Of a DNA stretch of 60,547 nt, positions 1 through 29,724 are shown one piece after another (within the stretch, counting starts at the first letter, position 1; each line of letters opens with the position of its first letter). The notes beneath the pieces were generated by a model that searched no databases, was not told the origin of the DNA, and worked only from the letters and a program-made list of their open reading frames with translations. Location of the stretch: contig DVIV01000003.1 of NCBI GenBank assembly GCA_018710985.1, forward strand, positions 1 through 60,547. The letters are read 5' to 3'. This DNA comes from Candidatus Limiplasma pullicola. Lineage in GTDB: Bacteria > Bacillota > Clostridia > Christensenellales > Aristaeellaceae. A program made the position numbers and the translations under genes.

Positions 1-933
1 GACGACCTGCACGAGGAGCTCAAGGCCACCAAGCGCCAGCGCATCCGCGACATCATGAAGCACCCCGATCAGGAGGCGCTGCTGGAGGAAACCTACGACG
101 AGATGGAAAGCGACCTCCAGCGCAGGATCGAGGGGCTGACCCACCAGATCGACCTTCTCTCGGACAGGCGCAACACCATCCTGCGGGTCAACCGCGTGGC
201 GAAAACCGCTATCGACGTCTTTGGGGACATCCTCGCCAAGGAAAAGCTCGACCGAAACGACCTGCGGCTCATCATCGACCGCATCAAAGTCTACGAGGAC
301 CACCTCGAAATTCAGCTTCAGGCCGACATCGACCAGCTTCTGCGCGCCTGCGAGCTGGAGGATACCGTAAATTTTAAGCCGGGCATCGAAAACGCCCTGG
401 GTTGCCAACTTGTCCAGTCTGCCAGAAACCAGCGAGACAAGGTTTTCGATGTCCATGTTGTCAGCAGCGGCGACCCCCTGGAGATCTACACCGACCGGGA
501 CGGCGAGGTCATCCTGAAGAAATACTCCCCCATCGGGGAAATGTCGGCCTTTGCCAAGGATTATACGGAATCCATCTTTCGCGCCATGGGGCACATCGCC
601 TGCATCGTAGACCGCGATCAGGTGGTGGCGGCCAGCGGCGTAAGCAAGAAGGAACTGGCCGACAAGCCCATCAGCCATGACCTGGAGACGGCCATCGCCA
701 ACCGCCAGACCGTGGCCATCAACCGCGCGGGCGGCGGCAAGATCGTGGCCGTGACCAACGAGGAGGACATCACCGGCTACACGGCGCAGGTGGTCTCCCC
801 CATCATCGCGGACGGCGAAGCCATCGGCGCGGTGCTGCTTCTCTCCAAGGAACAGGGCGCCAAGATGGGCGACGCGGAGCTCAAGGTGGCGGAAACCGCC
901 GCGGGCATCGTAGGCCGTCAGATGGAGCAGTAA
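1..933 (+). CDS. spoVT: Serine recombinase C-terminus fused in frame to SpoVT lacking its DNA-binding half (5' partial)
   Basis: The frame is open from base 1, so the gene is cut by the window edge. Translated residues 1 to about 155 look like the C-terminal coiled coil of a large serine recombinase (charged helices, then the IIDRIKVYEDHLEI segment and the NQRDKVF tail). From about base 469 the frame reads GDPLEIYTDRDGEVILKKY and continues to the end as SpoVT: the second part of its AbrB domain and the whole GAF domain (GHIACIVDRD, GVSKKE, final ETAAGIVGRQMEQ). The first ~31 residues of SpoVT, which make most of the DNA-binding swapped-hairpin, are missing. No stop separates the two parts. 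SpoVT is a forespore regulator in Bacillus. I infer that a mobile element lying to the left integrated within spoVT and that this is its right junction. The downstream genes are the usual spoVT neighbours, which shows the SpoVT half is in its native place. Confidence 0.9.
   Translation, partial: DDLHEELKATKRQRIRDIMKHPDQEALLEETYDEMESDLQRRIEGLTHQIDLLSDRRNTILRVNRVAKTAIDVFGDILAKEKLDRNDLRLIIDRIKVYEDHLEIQLQADIDQLLRACELEDTVNFKPGIENALGCQLVQSARNQRDKVFDVHVVSSGDPLEIYTDRDGEVILKKYSPIGEMSAFAKDYTESIFRAMGHIACIVDRDQVVAASGVSKKELADKPISHDLETAIANRQTVAINRAGGGKIVAVTNEEDITGYTAQVVSPIIADGEAIGAVLLLSKEQGAKMGDAELKVAETAAGIVGRQMEQ
464..486. other. Probable attachment-site junction (element/chromosome) inside spoVT
   Basis: Recombinase-like coding ends and SpoVT-like coding begins at the codons for S-S-G-D-P-L-E-I. 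The crossover most likely lies in or next to the GGCGACCCCCTGGAG stretch, because GDPLEI is conserved in SpoVT and would be shared by both attachment halves. The exact core cannot be set from one junction alone. The other junction, with the SpoVT N-terminus, should lie to the left of the window. Confidence 0.6.
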
Positions 934-1005: not shown

Positions 1006-1050
1006 TGCCATATTCCGCCGACAAATTTCCTTTTTTTCGGAGGCCTTTTT

Positions 1051-2643
1051 TTGAGCAGCACGCAGAAATCCATTCTCAGCGGCATGACCGTTCTCAGCGT
1101 CGTGGGCCTGATCTGCAAGATCGTGGGCGCCCTGTACCGCATCCCCCTGGCCTGGCTCATCGGGGACGAGGGCATGGGCACCTATCAGCTGGTTTTTCCC
1201 ACCTATAACATGCTGCTGACCATCTCCTCGGCCGGCCTGCCGGTCGCTATCAGCCGCATGGTCAGCTTTACGCTGGCGCGCGACGATCCCCGCAACGCCC
1301 GGCGCGTCTTCCGCGTGGCGCTGTGCCTTCTGTCCAGCCTCGGCCTGATCGCCATGCTCCTGATGGTGGTCATGAGCCCCACGCTGGCCCTTCGTTCGGG
1401 CGATCCCTCCACCCAGCCGGGCTTTGTGGCCATCGCGCCCGCCCTTTTGCTGGTGTGCGCCATGTCCGCGCTGCGCGGGTTCATGCAGGGTCAGCAGAAC
1501 ATGGTGCCTACCGCCATTTCCCAGCTGATCGAGCAGGTGGGCAAGGTCTTTGTGGCCCTGCCGCTCGCGTATTTCGGCATGCGCGTCTCCGTGGCCTACG
1601 CGGCGGCCGGCGTGCTTCTGGGCACCTCCATCGCCGAGGGCGTGGCGCTTCTGTACATGGTGGTGATCTACCGGCGCAGGCGCGCATCCTTCGCCGCCCT
1701 GCCCCAGAATCCGGACGAGCCGCCCCTGGCCGTGCGTCCCCTGCTCAAGCGCCTCCTGTCCCTGAGCATTCCCATCACGCTGGGCGCGTGCATCGTGCCC
1801 ATCGCCTCCTTCATCGACAGCGGCCTCCTGCTCAACCGTCTGGTGGACGCGGGCATCGAGCACAGCGCCGCGCTGGGGCTCTACGGGCGCTATTCGGGCT
1901 ATGTGCTCACTTTGATCAACGTGCCCACCGCTCTGGCCGTGGCCATCTCCATGAGCCTGGTGCCCTCCATCTCCAGCGCCATGGCCCGCGGCGACGGCAA
2001 GGCCATGCGCCGTCAAAGCGCGCTGGGGCTTCGGCTGTCGTTTGTGGTAGGCCTGCCCTGCTCCATCGGCATGAGCCTTTTGTCCTCGCAGATTCTCAGC
2101 CTGATCTATCATTTTGATACGCCCGAATCCCTGCGCGTAACCACCGAGCTGCTGAGCCTTTCCAGCCTGACCATCGTGCTCTTTACCGTGGTTCAGTCCA
2201 CCAGCGGCATTCTGCAGGGCCTGCGCAAGCAGCGCATCCCCATGTACACGCTCATGGCGGGCGTGGCGGTCAAGGTGCTACTCAACTACACGCTCATCGG
2301 CACGCCCGGCATCAACATCTACGGCGCGCCCATCGCCTCGCTCTCCTGCTATACCATCAGCATGCTGCCCAACCTGTGGTACGTGCGCAAGTACACCGGC
2401 ATGAAGCTGGATCTGAAGGGCATTCTGCTCAAGCCCGCGCTGGCCACCGCGCTCATGGGCGCCGTGCTGGCGCTGGCGATCCGCTGGCTGCCCTCCGGAC
2501 GGCTGTGGACGGTGGCGCTGGTGCTGCTGGGCATTGGCGCCTATGCCGCCTTTGCGCTCATCACCGGGGCGATGACTCGCGATGACCTTGCTCCCCTGCT
2601 CAAACGCTTCAGCCGCGGCAGGGCGCCAAAGAAGGAGGACTGA
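1051..2643 (+). CDS. SpoVB/YabM-like polysaccharide flippase (MOP superfamily)
   Basis: A protein of 530 residues with about 14 hydrophobic segments, of the polysaccharide-transport (SpoVB/MurJ-like) branch of the MOP flippases. These move lipid-linked glycans across the membrane; SpoVB acts in spore cortex synthesis. The N-terminus carries the family pattern GLICKIVGALYRIPLAWLIG and GTYQLVFPTYN. The start is a TTG at 1051, chosen because GGAGG lies at 1039-1043; the upstream in-frame ATG-like starts have no ribosome site. Position between spoVT and yabN matches B. subtilis yabM, so it may be the YabM rather than the SpoVB orthologue. It is separated by 3 bp from the next gene and is probably cotranscribed with it. 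Confidence 0.88.
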   Translation: MSSTQKSILSGMTVLSVVGLICKIVGALYRIPLAWLIGDEGMGTYQLVFPTYNMLLTISSAGLPVAISRMVSFTLARDDPRNARRVFRVALCLLSSLGLIAMLLMVVMSPTLALRSGDPSTQPGFVAIAPALLLVCAMSALRGFMQGQQNMVPTAISQLIEQVGKVFVALPLAYFGMRVSVAYAAAGVLLGTSIAEGVALLYMVVIYRRRRASFAALPQNPDEPPLAVRPLLKRLLSLSIPITLGACIVPIASFIDSGLLLNRLVDAGIEHSAALGLYGRYSGYVLTLINVPTALAVAISMSLVPSISSAMARGDGKAMRRQSALGLRLSFVVGLPCSIGMSLLSSQILSLIYHFDTPESLRVTTELLSLSSLTIVLFTVVQSTSGILQGLRKQRIPMYTLMAGVAVKVLLNYTLIGTPGINIYGAPIASLSCYTISMLPNLWYVRKYTGMKLDLKGILLKPALATALMGAVLALAIRWLPSGRLWTVALVLLGIGAYAAFALITGAMTRDDLAPLLKRFSRGRAPKKED

Positions 2644-2646
2644 CTC

Positions 2647-4098
2647 ATGAACCGCCTGACCATTGTGACCCTGGGAACCGGCGGCGAGGCTTTTTTGACC
2701 CGCGGCGTGGAGCGCGCGCTGCGCGAGGCCCCGCGCGTGATGCTGCGCACGGGCCGTCACCCCATGGCGGATTTTCTCCGCCAGGAGGGCATCGCCTTTG
2801 AGACGCTCGACGCGCTCTATGACGAATGTGAGGACTTCGACACCTTCAATCGCGCAGCGGCGGTCAAAGTGCTCAGCCTGCTTGGCGAAAGCCCCGTTTG
2901 CTACGCCGTGAGCGATGCAGCTTTCGACGAAACCGTGGCCCAGATTCAGCGGCTCAAGCCGCGGGAGGCGGATGTGCGGGTTCTGCCCGGCGTCAGCCAT
3001 GCGGACCGCTGCCTGGCCATGATAGAGGATGCGCCGGCGGGCGTGAGGCTGTACGCGGCGGAGTCCTTCCTGCAGGCCCGCGTTTCGCCGGAAGAGCCGC
3101 TGCTGGTAACGGAGGTGCACAGCCGCGAATGTGCGGGCGAGGTGAAGCTGCGCCTGATGGACCTTTTGCCGGAGGAGACGCCCGTGTCCTTCTTCACCGG
3201 GGACGAGGCCACGGGCGAATTGTCCGTGCGCTCCGTACCGCTCTATGAGCTGGACCGCCAGAGCGCCTATGACCACCTCACCGCCGCCTACGTGCCCGCC
3301 GTGCCCATGGAGCGGCGCGCCCGCTATGACATGGACGACCTGGTGCACGTGATGCAGCGCCTGCGCGCGCCCGACGGCTGCCCCTGGGACCGCGAGCAGA
3401 CCCACGAAAGCCTGTTGCCCAGCCTTCTGGAGGAAAGCTATGAATACATCCAGGCCGTGCGCGACGGCGACATCGACCATATGTACGACGAGCTGGGCGA
3501 CGTGCTTTTGCAGGTGGTGTTCCACGCGGAGGTGGCGCGCCAGCACGGCGACTTTGACATCCACGATGTCACAACCGCCATCTGCCACAAGATGATCGAG
3601 CGGCACACCCACATCTTCGGCACGGAAAAGGCTGATACCGCCGGACAGGTGCTGGACAACTGGGAGGCCCTCAAACGCCGCCAGCGCGGCATCACCACCC
3701 ACGCGCAGGCCATGGAGGACGTCTCCACCGGGCTGTCGCCCCTGCTTCGCGCCAGCAAGGTGCAAAACAAGGCGCACAAGGTGGGCTTCGATTTTGCGGG
3801 CGCGGCCGAGGCGCTGGGCAAGGTCTACGAGGAGGCGGACGAGGTGGCCCAGAACCTCGGCGACGGCGTGGACCCCGAAATGGAGCTGGGTGACCTGCTG
3901 TTCTCTGTGGTCAATGTTTGCCGCCTGGCTGGCAAGAATCCCGATATTGCCCTTTTTGCTTCCACAAATAAGTTCATTTCCCGCTTCCGTGCCATGGAAA
4001 ACGCCATAAAAAAGTCGGGAAAATGCTTAGAGGACTTGACTTTATCGGAAATGGATGTATACTGGAACACAGGAAAGCGAGGCGGGCAAAGGGTTTGA
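2647..4098 (+). CDS. mazG: YabN-type fusion: tetrapyrrole methylase-like domain plus MazG nucleotide pyrophosphohydrolase
   Basis: 483 residues. The first ~210 form a tetrapyrrole (SAM-dependent) methylase-like fold (TIVTLGTGGEAFLTRG, VLPGVSHADR). The rest is MazG: RLRAPDGCPWDREQTHESL, then EESYEY and DELGDVLLQ, which carry the acidic Mg-binding residues, and a second MazG-like repeat near residues 370-450 (EEADEVAQN, ELGDLLFSVVN). MazG removes abnormal nucleoside triphosphates. This two-domain form and its place after the flippase and before rqcP match B. subtilis yabN. A promoter for the following hup gene lies inside its 3' end. Confidence 0.93.
   Translation: MNRLTIVTLGTGGEAFLTRGVERALREAPRVMLRTGRHPMADFLRQEGIAFETLDALYDECEDFDTFNRAAAVKVLSLLGESPVCYAVSDAAFDETVAQIQRLKPREADVRVLPGVSHADRCLAMIEDAPAGVRLYAAESFLQARVSPEEPLLVTEVHSRECAGEVKLRLMDLLPEETPVSFFTGDEATGELSVRSVPLYELDRQSAYDHLTAAYVPAVPMERRARYDMDDLVHVMQRLRAPDGCPWDREQTHESLLPSLLEESYEYIQAVRDGDIDHMYDELGDVLLQVVFHAEVARQHGDFDIHDVTTAICHKMIERHTHIFGTEKADTAGQVLDNWEALKRRQRGITTHAQAMEDVSTGLSPLLRASKVQNKAHKVGFDFAGAAEALGKVYEEADEVAQNLGDGVDPEMELGDLLFSVVNVCRLAGKNPDIALFASTNKFISRFRAMENAIKKSGKCLEDLTLSEMDVYWNTGKRGGQRV
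4036..4063 (+). promoter_or_regulatory. Probable hup promoter within the 3' end of yabN
   Basis: TTGACT (4036-4041), a 16-bp spacer and TATACT (4058-4063). It would give hup its own strong transcript of about 110 nt leader, in line with the abundance of HU proteins. Confidence 0.55.
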
Positions 4099-4185: not shown

Positions 4186-4461
4186 GTGAACAAAGCTGAA
4201 TTGACTGCCGCTATCGTTAAGAAGACCGGTTTCACCAAGAAGGACGCTGAAAAGGCGATCGCTGCCGTGACCGACGTCATCACCGAGACCCTGGCCGCTG
4301 GCGAGAAGGTCCAGATCGTTGGCTTCGGCGGCTTCGAAGTCCGCAGCCGCCCCGCGCGCGTGGCCCGCAACCCCCGCACCGGCGAGCAGATCAGCATCGA
4401 GGCCTCCAAGGCCCCCGTCTTCAAGGCCGGCAAGGCTCTGAAGGACAGCGTCAACAAGTAA
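4186..4461 (+). CDS. hup: HU-family DNA-binding protein
   Basis: 91 residues, the usual HU length. It starts MNKAELTAAIVKKTG, has the beta-arm GFGGFEVRSRPARVARNPRTG and ends in a conserved helix with FKAGKALKD. HU is an abundant histone-like protein that binds and bends DNA as a dimer. The start codon is GTG at 4186, with a near-perfect AAAGGAGGT ribosome site at 4169-4177. It has its own likely promoter and is followed by a strong terminator, so it is probably monocistronic. Codon use is visibly biased toward few codons, as expected for a highly expressed gene. In B. subtilis a comparable place near yabN-yabO is not occupied by hup. Confidence 0.97.
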   Translation: MNKAELTAAIVKKTGFTKKDAEKAIAAVTDVITETLAAGEKVQIVGFGGFEVRSRPARVARNPRTGEQISIEASKAPVFKAGKALKDSVNK

Positions 4462-5652: not shown

Positions 5653-5931
5653 ATGAGACTGGATAAATTTCTGAAGGTGTCGCGCATTATCAAGCGCCGC
5701 ACCGTAGCCAACGAGGCCTGCTCGGGCGGCCGTGTGTCGCTCAACGGCAAGGTGGCCAAGCCCGGCGCGGAGGTGCGCGAGGGCGACGTGCTGGAGATCC
5801 GCTTCGGCAGCCGCGTGGGCCGCTACCGCATCCAGAGCGTGAAGGAAACCGTGCGCAAGGAAGGCGCGCAGGATATGTACCAGGTGCTTGAGGAGGACGA
5901 GCAGACGCGCATGGAGCGCGGGGAGGCGTAA
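5653..5931 (+). CDS. rqcP: RqcP/YabO-type S4-domain RNA-binding protein
   Basis: 92 residues with an S4 fold: MRLDKFLKVSRIIKRRTVANEAC, then GGRVSLNGKVAKPG and EGDVLEIRFG. RqcP (YabO) works with RqcH in bacterial ribosome-associated quality control, helping to add alanine tails on stalled nascent chains. The same family contains Hsp15-like proteins. Its neighbourhood near yabN supports the YabO identity. The ribosome site AAAGGAG is at 5637-5643. The yabP and yabQ genes that usually follow in Bacillus are absent here; ispD follows instead. Confidence 0.9.
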   Translation: MRLDKFLKVSRIIKRRTVANEACSGGRVSLNGKVAKPGAEVREGDVLEIRFGSRVGRYRIQSVKETVRKEGAQDMYQVLEEDEQTRMERGEA

Positions 5932-28588: not shown

Positions 28589-29724
28589 TTGATTCCCACC
28601 CTTTCCAGCACCTGGGCCAGCACGCCCTGCCAGGACATGTGGCTTTCCGCATAGGCGCGCATCTGCGCGGGCGTTTCTTCATCGGCTTGCGCGCGCCGGG
28701 CAAAGGCCACAAGCGCCGCAAGGTCGATGGGGCTTTCGTCATTGGGGAGCCGCAGGCAGAAGGCGGGGTTCTCCGGCAGGGAGGGGTCGTCCACCGCATA
28801 GGCGAAGGGCAGGCCCCGCGCCATGTATTCCCGCAGCTTGAGCGTCATGCTGCGGTACTGTCCCTTGCGGTGCAGCCCCAGCCCGCCGATACCGATATCG
28901 CACTGTGCCGCCACCCGGTCCAGCGCCTCGCCGTGCAGCTCGCCATGAAAGACGACGCGGTCCGCCACGCCCCGCTCCTGCGCCAGCCGTTTCCACGCCG
29001 CCAGCGAGCCGTCGCCCTCGCCTCCAACCATGTGCACCGTGACCGGCTCGCCGCCCCTGTAGCGCGCCAGCGCCTCGATCAGCCGGTCATAGCCCTGCCA
29101 CACCGACATGCTGGCCAGCGCGAGCATGCCGACGTCCCGCGCTCCCTTGCGCGGGACGTGCAGCGGCAGGCGGCTCACGTCCACGCCGTTCAAGATGTTC
29201 ATGGCGGGACGACCGTTGAGCGTTCCCTCGCAGGGGTCCCCGATGAGGGCGTAGAGGTCGATCATGGGCTCCAGGCGGCGGAACACGCGCGCGTTGTAGG
29301 CAAAGACCGGCATGCGCAGAAGCGAGGAGCGCTTGCCGTTTTCAAACGGATAGGTCGGATGCTCCACCACCAGCCGCGCCCCCCGCGCCTTCACGGCGGC
29401 CAGCGCCCCCGGCGCGTTATGGAACACCCGCATGAAGCGCATGTACACCACGTCAAAGCGCCTGAGGGCCGCCGCCTTTTGGAGCGCGGCCATCAGATCC
29501 ACGTACAGCAGCGTCTTTTCATACCCCGGCAGGCCCGTCAGCCGGGCGGGACGGAGCAGCGTACGCTCGCCCTCCCCCACCAGCCACAAGCCCTCATGGT
29601 TCCAGCCGATCAGCCGCGCCTCATGCCCCATGGCCCGCACGGCGGCCATCTGCCCGTCGAACTTGATCTTGAGGTTATCGCCCTTCTCCAGCGGGTAACG
29701 CATCAGAAACAGCACCGACGCCAC
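28573..29724 (-). CDS. Glycosyltransferase, GT-B/GT4-like
   Basis: 383 residues. The start SVLFLMRYPLEKGDNLKIKF, the central MNILNGVDVSRLPL and the C-terminal GLGLHRKGQYRSMTLKLREYMARGLPF fit a GT4-like enzyme, although the second Glu of the EX7E motif is not obvious. It lies in the exopolysaccharide operon, 18 bp after the preceding gene. The sugar is unknown. Confidence 0.82.
   Translation of the reverse strand: MASVLFLMRYPLEKGDNLKIKFDGQMAAVRAMGHEARLIGWNHEGLWLVGEGERTLLRPARLTGLPGYEKTLLYVDLMAALQKAAALRRFDVVYMRFMRVFHNAPGALAAVKARGARLVVEHPTYPFENGKRSSLLRMPVFAYNARVFRRLEPMIDLYALIGDPCEGTLNGRPAMNILNGVDVSRLPLHVPRKGARDVGMLALASMSVWQGYDRLIEALARYRGGEPVTVHMVGGEGDGSLAAWKRLAQERGVADRVVFHGELHGEALDRVAAQCDIGIGGLGLHRKGQYRSMTLKLREYMARGLPFAYAVDDPSLPENPAFCLRLPNDESPIDLAALVAFARRAQADEETPAQMRAYAESHMSWQGVLAQVLERVGIKCPER

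Follow-up and report, generated by a model that had tools for sequence, protein, structure and literature searches.

Recombinase-bearing elements that split sporulation genes are of a known kind. In the available portions of the papers that describe them, skin carries its own recombinase and its excision from sigK rebuilds a sporulation regulator (PMC10747680, PMC4191935), while SPbeta, which splits spsM of B. subtilis and has SprA as recombinase and SprB as directionality factor, is a serine recombinase element whose attachment sites combine a short shared core with inverted repeats (PMC4191935); in each of these respects the locus described here has its likeness. Excision of SPbeta is confined to the mother cell, and the prophage is thereby kept in the spore (PMC4191935, available text). 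In the portions of the sources available, gin in gerE of Bacillus cereus and yin in yabG of Clostridium botulinum also split a sporulation gene and have one or more serine recombinases, gin being without phage-related genes and with restriction-modification genes (PMC5595907, PMC10747680).

In the cases that we found described, the split sporulation gene is one of the mother cell, in which an element can be lost without harm to its inheritance. SpoVT, where studied, acts in the forespore; according to the available parts of two sources, it is made there under sigmaF/sigmaG in C. difficile (PMC3789822) and under sigmaG in B. subtilis (PMC5061766). A terminal excision of the skin type would therefore lose the element, and a family of elements using spoVT must solve or dodge that loss of inheritance. 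The original prediction, which placed an element inside spoVT, raised this objection to the skin model, and on the available text of these sources we judge it sound and important.

The recombinase-SpoVT frame and its locus

The window, by which we mean the whole stretch of 60,547 nucleotides analysed, begins with a single open frame of 310 amino acids (positions 1-933) in which the C-terminus of a serine recombinase is joined at SpoVT residue D32 to the GAF domain. Judged from sequence, this frame forms the right-hand end, attR, of an integrative element inserted in spoVT at codon D32. The original prediction had described a recombinase joined without a stop to SpoVT at about residue 32, and the single frame with its junction at D32 bears this out. 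The features of the locus are as follows.

1..471, forward strand: 3' part of a large serine recombinase gene, its 5' side cut by the contig end (from the open frame and from relatives)
453..464, forward strand: left arm of attP, CCATGTTGTCAG, within the recombinase frame (by comparison with the joined attP of 26 other genomes)
469..476, forward strand: attR core, GGCGACCC, with the crossover GA at 472-473
472..933, forward strand: 3' part of spoVT, from D32 to the end including the stop codon, with the GAF domain; PF15714 at 538-927
1027..2643, forward strand: host flank, SpoVB/YabM-like flippase, the next gene of the spoVT locus (Pfam Polysacc_synt/MurJ)
2647..4098, forward strand: host flank, YabN-like TP_methylase-MazG protein (Pfam)
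4186..4461, forward strand: host flank, HU-type DNA-binding protein (Pfam)
5653..5931, forward strand: host flank, S4-domain (YabO-like) protein (Pfam)

The crossover GA, placed by comparison with the 26 other genomes, supplies the first two bases of codon D32. Residues 180-309 of the window protein match PF15714 (SpoVT_C) with an E value of 1.3e-43, which represents a complete SpoVT C-terminal domain, and the SpoVT part is identical to SpoVT of genome G015 at 152 of 153 residues. An M42 peptidase is also found downstream by Pfam, between the HU and S4 proteins in the listed order, and the genes 3' of the chimera look like the usual spoVT neighbourhood, as in the gene order of Bacillus.

The window carries only the last part of the recombinase, whose identity rests on relatives; recombinase-SpoVT frames of 731-747 amino acids in G001, G008, G014 and G016 have ends that share 84-85% identity with the window protein. 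In full-length relatives (721 amino acids in G001, 708 in G057) Pfam recognises Resolvase, Recombinase, Zn_ribbon_recom and SpoVT_C, and the relatives thus have the Resolvase and Recombinase domains and zinc ribbon of large serine recombinases. The RIS motif is invariant in all nine aligned recombinases, and among solved structures the closest in sequence is that of YokA (9dxh, E 6.4e-20), also known as SprA. An AlphaFold model of the relative L101, of modest quality overall (pLDDT 66, pTM 0.33), has long helices at residues 362-432 and 434-491, in keeping with the long coiled coil of large serine recombinases, block pLDDT of 76-88 in the appended domain over residues 591-650 and 671-720, and a joint before the GAF domain (residues 568-586) with pLDDT below 50. 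Only the domain order is supported by this model: a joint of low confidence, then a GAF domain that is predicted to be folded.

The window starts where contig C2 of its genome (G000) starts, and the left junction is for this reason unassembled there. A SpoVT N-half was not found in the window genome, and a search with the left flank of the sister genome G007 matched only in its last ~400 bases, mostly a repeat. The AbrB-type matches that do occur (on C13 and C44) were rejected as the N-half by eye, being an AbrB paralogue and an HTH protein. With the left element end missing, no attP can be put together for the window itself, and we infer the left end of this copy from its relatives. PF15714 has a single match in the window genome, so no spare SpoVT is seen; the case of an intact spoVT elsewhere with no AbrB half, which the original prediction named as its refutation, did not occur.

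The left end, attachment sites and cargo

In the chimeric genomes the AbrB half is located elsewhere, and its match to SpoVT ends between residues 33 and 44. The N-half is complete, from start codon to core, in 25 of the 33 split genomes, and in each of these the codon of the join to an element-encoded tail is the same. In G427 the start of the N-half is replaced by other sequence, while G437 has two copies, one cut by a contig end and one broken; no N-half was found in five of the 33 (G000, G194, G429, G434 and G444). The expectation that the AbrB half would lie at the other element end thus holds in relatives, whereas in the window genome that end is unassembled. Both halves occur on a single contig, on the same strand and with the N-half first, in 13 genomes (G001, G008, G070, G273, G422, G423, G426, G430, G435, G436, G440, G441 and G442). 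The order in each is SpoVT 1-31, element, chimera, and the presence of both junctions in this arrangement upholds the claim of an element inside spoVT. Eleven of the 13 elements were cut out and measure 11.6-34.2 kb; that of G435 is ~81 kb by its coordinates.

Several loci depart from this arrangement. In G188 (L100, G188:C8) a decayed N-half lies near position 1857 on the reverse strand, reading DERGRGVIP for DELGRVVIP before passing into unrelated sequence, with the chimera intact. In G443 (L219-L220, G443:C23) the two halves share a contig, where their order is wrong, and a typA-like GTPase (identified by eye) and other host genes adjoin the chimera; this scrambled order reflects either rearrangement or misassembly. 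G423 (L212, G423:C1) has N-half copies at contig positions 29622 and 30259, there being a second match to the SpoVT N-terminus, with an internal stop, ~640 bases before the complete N-half. A second break in spoVT occurs just before codon 11 in G427 (L224, G427:C220, near 1910), G431 (L181, G431:C56) and G437 (L222, G437:C80), where other sequence with a TTGACA-like motif is found near the break; in G427 two ORFs that resemble serine recombinases by eye lie just upstream. These codon-11 breaks may represent a second element type using spoVT.

Attachment sites were built by joining element ends and host ends in 26 genomes with both ends, i.e., the 25 with a complete N-half and G427. In all 26 the joined attP is a dyad centred on GA, as expected of a large serine recombinase, matching on average at 17.9 of 25 positions (range 14-21), against a mean of 6.2 in shuffles (sd 2.2, maximum 14); the means for attB, attL and attR are 10.1, 9.4 and 7.4. 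The GA and the next two bases are identical at both junctions in every one of the 26. The attP lies within the 3' end of the recombinase gene and in the reading frame of the target, and integration therefore swaps tails: the recombinase gains the SpoVT GAF domain in place of what would be its native last residues (~24 beyond GDP), while the AbrB half of SpoVT loses the GAF domain and gains what would be the recombinase tail. The junctions in relatives agree with the earlier claim that integration builds a recombinase-GAF chimera and separates the AbrB half. Reverse recombination at GA would restore both genes exactly, as joining the ends shows; in all six genomes of the tested set, outside which the window genome lies, the rejoined SpoVT has 184 amino acids without stops, and 174-182 of its residues are identical to an intact relative.

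The N-half continues into a conserved element-encoded tail, e.g., DPLLMTWGARERGLVAMMALGERRGW in G009, giving an AbrB half plus tail product of 57-61 amino acids in 23 of 25 relatives, 69 in G007 and 83 in G057. In the circular form this tail should serve as the recombinase's own C-terminal end. Over tail codons 12-24, beyond the att arm, pN/pS is 0.44 (pS 0.83, 27 sequences), compared with 1.3 and 1.1 in the other two frames, which suggests that in one state or another the tail is translated and subject to selection. No joined attP was found in 36 assemblies (the 33 split genomes and three others) by a pattern with 3 mismatches that would catch 24 of the 26 known forms, nor in viral_contigs by exact match, which catches 14 of the 26.

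The recombinase alone is common to all 11 cut-out elements, the next families being found in six. Ten proteins picked from three elements (G008, G441 and G426), likely relaxases among them, were scanned against Pfam. They include relaxases (Mob_Pre in G008 and G441, MobA/VirD2 in G426), a DNA methylase with a ResIII-type partner, a type ISP restriction enzyme, and DUF5906, AAA_25 and RhuM-family proteins; one small ORF of the ten had no Pfam match. Relaxase and restriction cargo fits mobilizable islands with defence genes, and the element is probably an integrative mobilizable island.

Upstream of the recombinase, sigmaA-like sites occur at 14 of 77 loci, compared with a mean of 3.0 and a maximum of 7 in shuffles that preserve single-base content only, the loci themselves being related; sporulation-sigma consensus sequences show no excess over shuffles in the same region. 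In 20 of 80 loci, L151 among them, a conserved ORF of ~94 amino acids precedes the recombinase and ends ~340 bases short of it, at least 2.7 kb of upstream sequence being available at 58 of the 80. Its G426 member had no Pfam match, and it is a candidate accessory or directionality factor. The commonest upstream family, of ~142 amino acids on the opposite strand at 34 loci, was taken as a putative shadow ORF.

Distribution, movement and constraint

Among 60 relatives searched, the same join is found in six further genomes of the genus (G001, G007, G008, G009, G014 and G016) and in one genome of another family, G057; where contigs permit, the chimeric frames are full-length, at 731-748 amino acids. 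G007, a 99% identical sister, has the same join. The original prediction had proposed a comparison with related genomes. Within the genus, seven of 17 genomes carry the chimera, nine have SpoVT but no recombinase joined to it, and one gave no match at all; in four of the nine the N-terminus of SpoVT was directly matched as a continuous stretch. G002, which combines SpoVT without the recombinase and an extra N-half, was read as contamination from a related species, because the two differ strongly in DNA, and we draw no conclusion from it. Across 396 genomes of the order PF15714 matched in 245, once in each. Frames longer than 700 amino acids occur in at least eight of the matches listed (G001, G008, G014, G057, G070, G188, G194 and G273), a lower bound to which the window genome, cut by its contig end, is additional. 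The chimera is also found in other genera and in one other family of the order.

The recombinase part alone, as an alignment (A1) that stops ahead of the core, served to scan genome_contigs (84,980 species genomes). Among the best 80 of 291 relatives, 78 continue in frame into SpoVT, in accord with the suggestion that the recombinase gene borrows the 3' end of spoVT. In L167 the recombinase stops at a contig end, and in L138 it continues into other sequence, the genome concerned (G431) having SpoVT only from about codon 11. Record titles among the relatives include Oscillospiraceae, Butyricicoccus, Agathobaculum, Flavonifractor, Pseudoflavonifractor, Oscillibacter and others, isolates among them. 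Commensal carriers in culture include Flavonifractor sp. An100, Oscillibacter valericigenes An411, Pseudoflavonifractor sp. An85, Agathobaculum butyriciproducens DSM 100391 and Butyricicoccus pullicaecorum DSM 23266. The recombinase had no relatives in viral_contigs, and all 318 plasmid records were distant (below 60% identity). Of 307 records in the phage collection, the closest two come from human faeces; the first, at 74.6% identity, ends ahead of the core and has no terminal repeats. The second (L238, MT836658.1) has a recombinase 52.6% identical, fused to SpoVT-C, and likewise lacks terminal repeats. It was deposited as a 'bacteriophage' clone from human faeces and, since it reads into SpoVT-C, it is probably host-integrated element DNA.

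Two explanations would dispense with integration altogether. A contig end is only 471 bases away from the join, as might be expected of an assembly chimera, a doubt that the original prediction itself had entertained; the identical join recurs inside long contigs of many independent assemblies, isolates included, which contradicts such an artefact and rules it out, and with the closely similar sister and the full-length frames sharing the join, we dismiss an explanation that is scarcely conceivable. It is also highly improbable that the chimera is an old, vertically inherited gene fusion and no mobile element. In its favour, the chimera is conserved in one frame, and recombinase and SpoVT-C identities are correlated across 83 chimeras, weakly (rank correlation 0.21) yet above 500 permutations (maximum 0.15). 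Synonymous divergence between G000 and G007 is equal in the recombinase (pS 0.075), SpoVT-C (0.082) and the next gene (0.079), and these two genomes therefore share the element, and with it the chimera, by descent from a common ancestor. Vertical fusion is already contradicted, however, by recombinases 93-94% identical that are fused to SpoVT-C sequences only 39-43% identical (L116 versus L111, L118 and L120), which imply horizontal movement in which each host's own half is captured and the fusion is made afresh; moreover, the N-half is separated from the chimera by an element that brings cargo genes of its own. In G001, G009, G014 and G016 the recombinase (pS 0.20-0.24) is less diverged than SpoVT-C (pS 0.44-0.58), and these insertions or transfers are therefore younger than the species.

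Within the genus, neither half of spoVT appears from its sequence to be under relaxed constraint. The pN/pS of SpoVT-C is 0.072 in seven split genomes and 0.063 in nine intact ones. That of the N-half is 0.031 in 12 split sequences from the window's wider clade (which include the extra copy of G002, G438 and G439), 0.066 in 15 others and 0.030 in intact genomes of the genus. Between G000 and G007, SpoVT-C has nine synonymous and no non-synonymous changes; in a wider set of 12 chimeras, with no intact control, its pN/pS is 0.165. Conservation in G001, G009, G014 and G016 need not reflect constraint after insertion, since a young insertion may give a false signal of constraint in some hosts; alternatively, the chimera and the short AbrB protein may have functions of their own that keep the sequences conserved. 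With spoIVA found in 31 of the 33 split genomes, the hosts resemble spore-forming bacteria, while the damaged N-halves of G188, G427 and G437 and the scrambled order of G443 indicate that some lineages may have lost SpoVT.

Possible consequences for sporulation and comparison with known elements

In explaining what the element does to its host, we favour reversible integration over a lasting block of sporulation, and consider it fairly probable, because both spoVT halves are retained, which suggests that SpoVT is sometimes rebuilt. The element would excise in at least some sporulating cells, restoring SpoVT, and would afterwards re-integrate or stay in the remaining cells; the recombinase would probably be made in growing cells, and excision would probably be timed by a separate factor, like SprA/SprB of SPbeta. 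Against reversible integration, neither the assemblies nor viral_contigs yielded an attP, we identified no excision-directing factor, the N-half is damaged in a few hosts and some insertions are young; excision in the forespore would also drop the element from the spore unless it re-integrated. We think it doubtful, though possible, that the integrated element instead keeps spoVT off, so that no mature spores form and excision serves transfer only, the element profiting from a cell kept vegetative and transferable. Relaxase and restriction-modification cargo suits such a transfer element, no circle was seen in assemblies and some N-halves are decayed or broken; in the available text of the sources, moreover, SpoVT is required for heat-resistant spores of C. 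difficile (PMC3789822) and to complete sporulation of B. cereus (PMC5061766). Yet B. subtilis lacking SpoVT continues to form spores, although defective ones (PMC5061766, available text), and any block might thus be partial; lasting loss of SpoVT should allow decay, whereas both halves and spoIVA are kept. Reversible integration and a block can be mixed across lineages.

Compatible with either is the idea that the chimera is itself a switch, in which the gained GAF domain might alter oligomerisation or confer a response to the SpoVT ligand, so that the integrated enzyme and that of the circle would differ in direction. The fusion is in frame in 78 of 80 relatives despite differing hosts and recombinases, and the appended GAF domain is predicted to fold in the modest L101 model. 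However, rejoining explains the conservation of the GAF domain equally well, and the frames match because attP and attB lie in coding sequence at one fixed phase; we regard a switch as unlikely. Similarly speculative is a scheme in which a single recombination event, building both an integrase-GAF chimera that reads the SpoVT signal and a short SpoVT without GAF, would tie the element's mobility to spore development in a reversible way, the spore line keeping the element.

The sporulation of gut Clostridia is often uncertain, and this element, frequent among them and present in cultured strains, provides a possible genetic cause that is open to testing by PCR. The design of the integrase is also unusual, the tail swap being reciprocal and a host gene completing the enzyme. 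SSV-type integrases of archaeal viruses have attP inside the integrase gene, and integration splits the integrase; here, in contrast, the catalytic part stays whole and a host domain replaces the tail.

What the locus shares with the intervening elements of sporulation genes (skin, SPbeta, vfbin, gin and yin) is a split gene, an adjoining recombinase and restoration in silico. The differences, in the available portions of the sources, are these: spsM is rebuilt in the mother cell only, whereas spoVT is a forespore gene in C. difficile and B. subtilis, and the SPbeta recombinase is not described as running into its target gene (PMC4191935); sigK, the target of skin, is a mother-cell sigma factor gene (PMC10747680, PMC4191935); and gerE (PMC10747680) and yabG (PMC10681294), split by gin and yin, are mother-cell targets too. 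The word spoVT is absent from the available text of the gin and yin papers (PMC5595907, PMC10747680), and among the matches listed from the open-licence literature we found neither a split spoVT nor a recombinase-SpoVT fusion. As far as our literature searches show, therefore, the novelty of this family lies in its use of spoVT, a forespore gene where studied, as target and in an integrase that is completed by the gene it enters.
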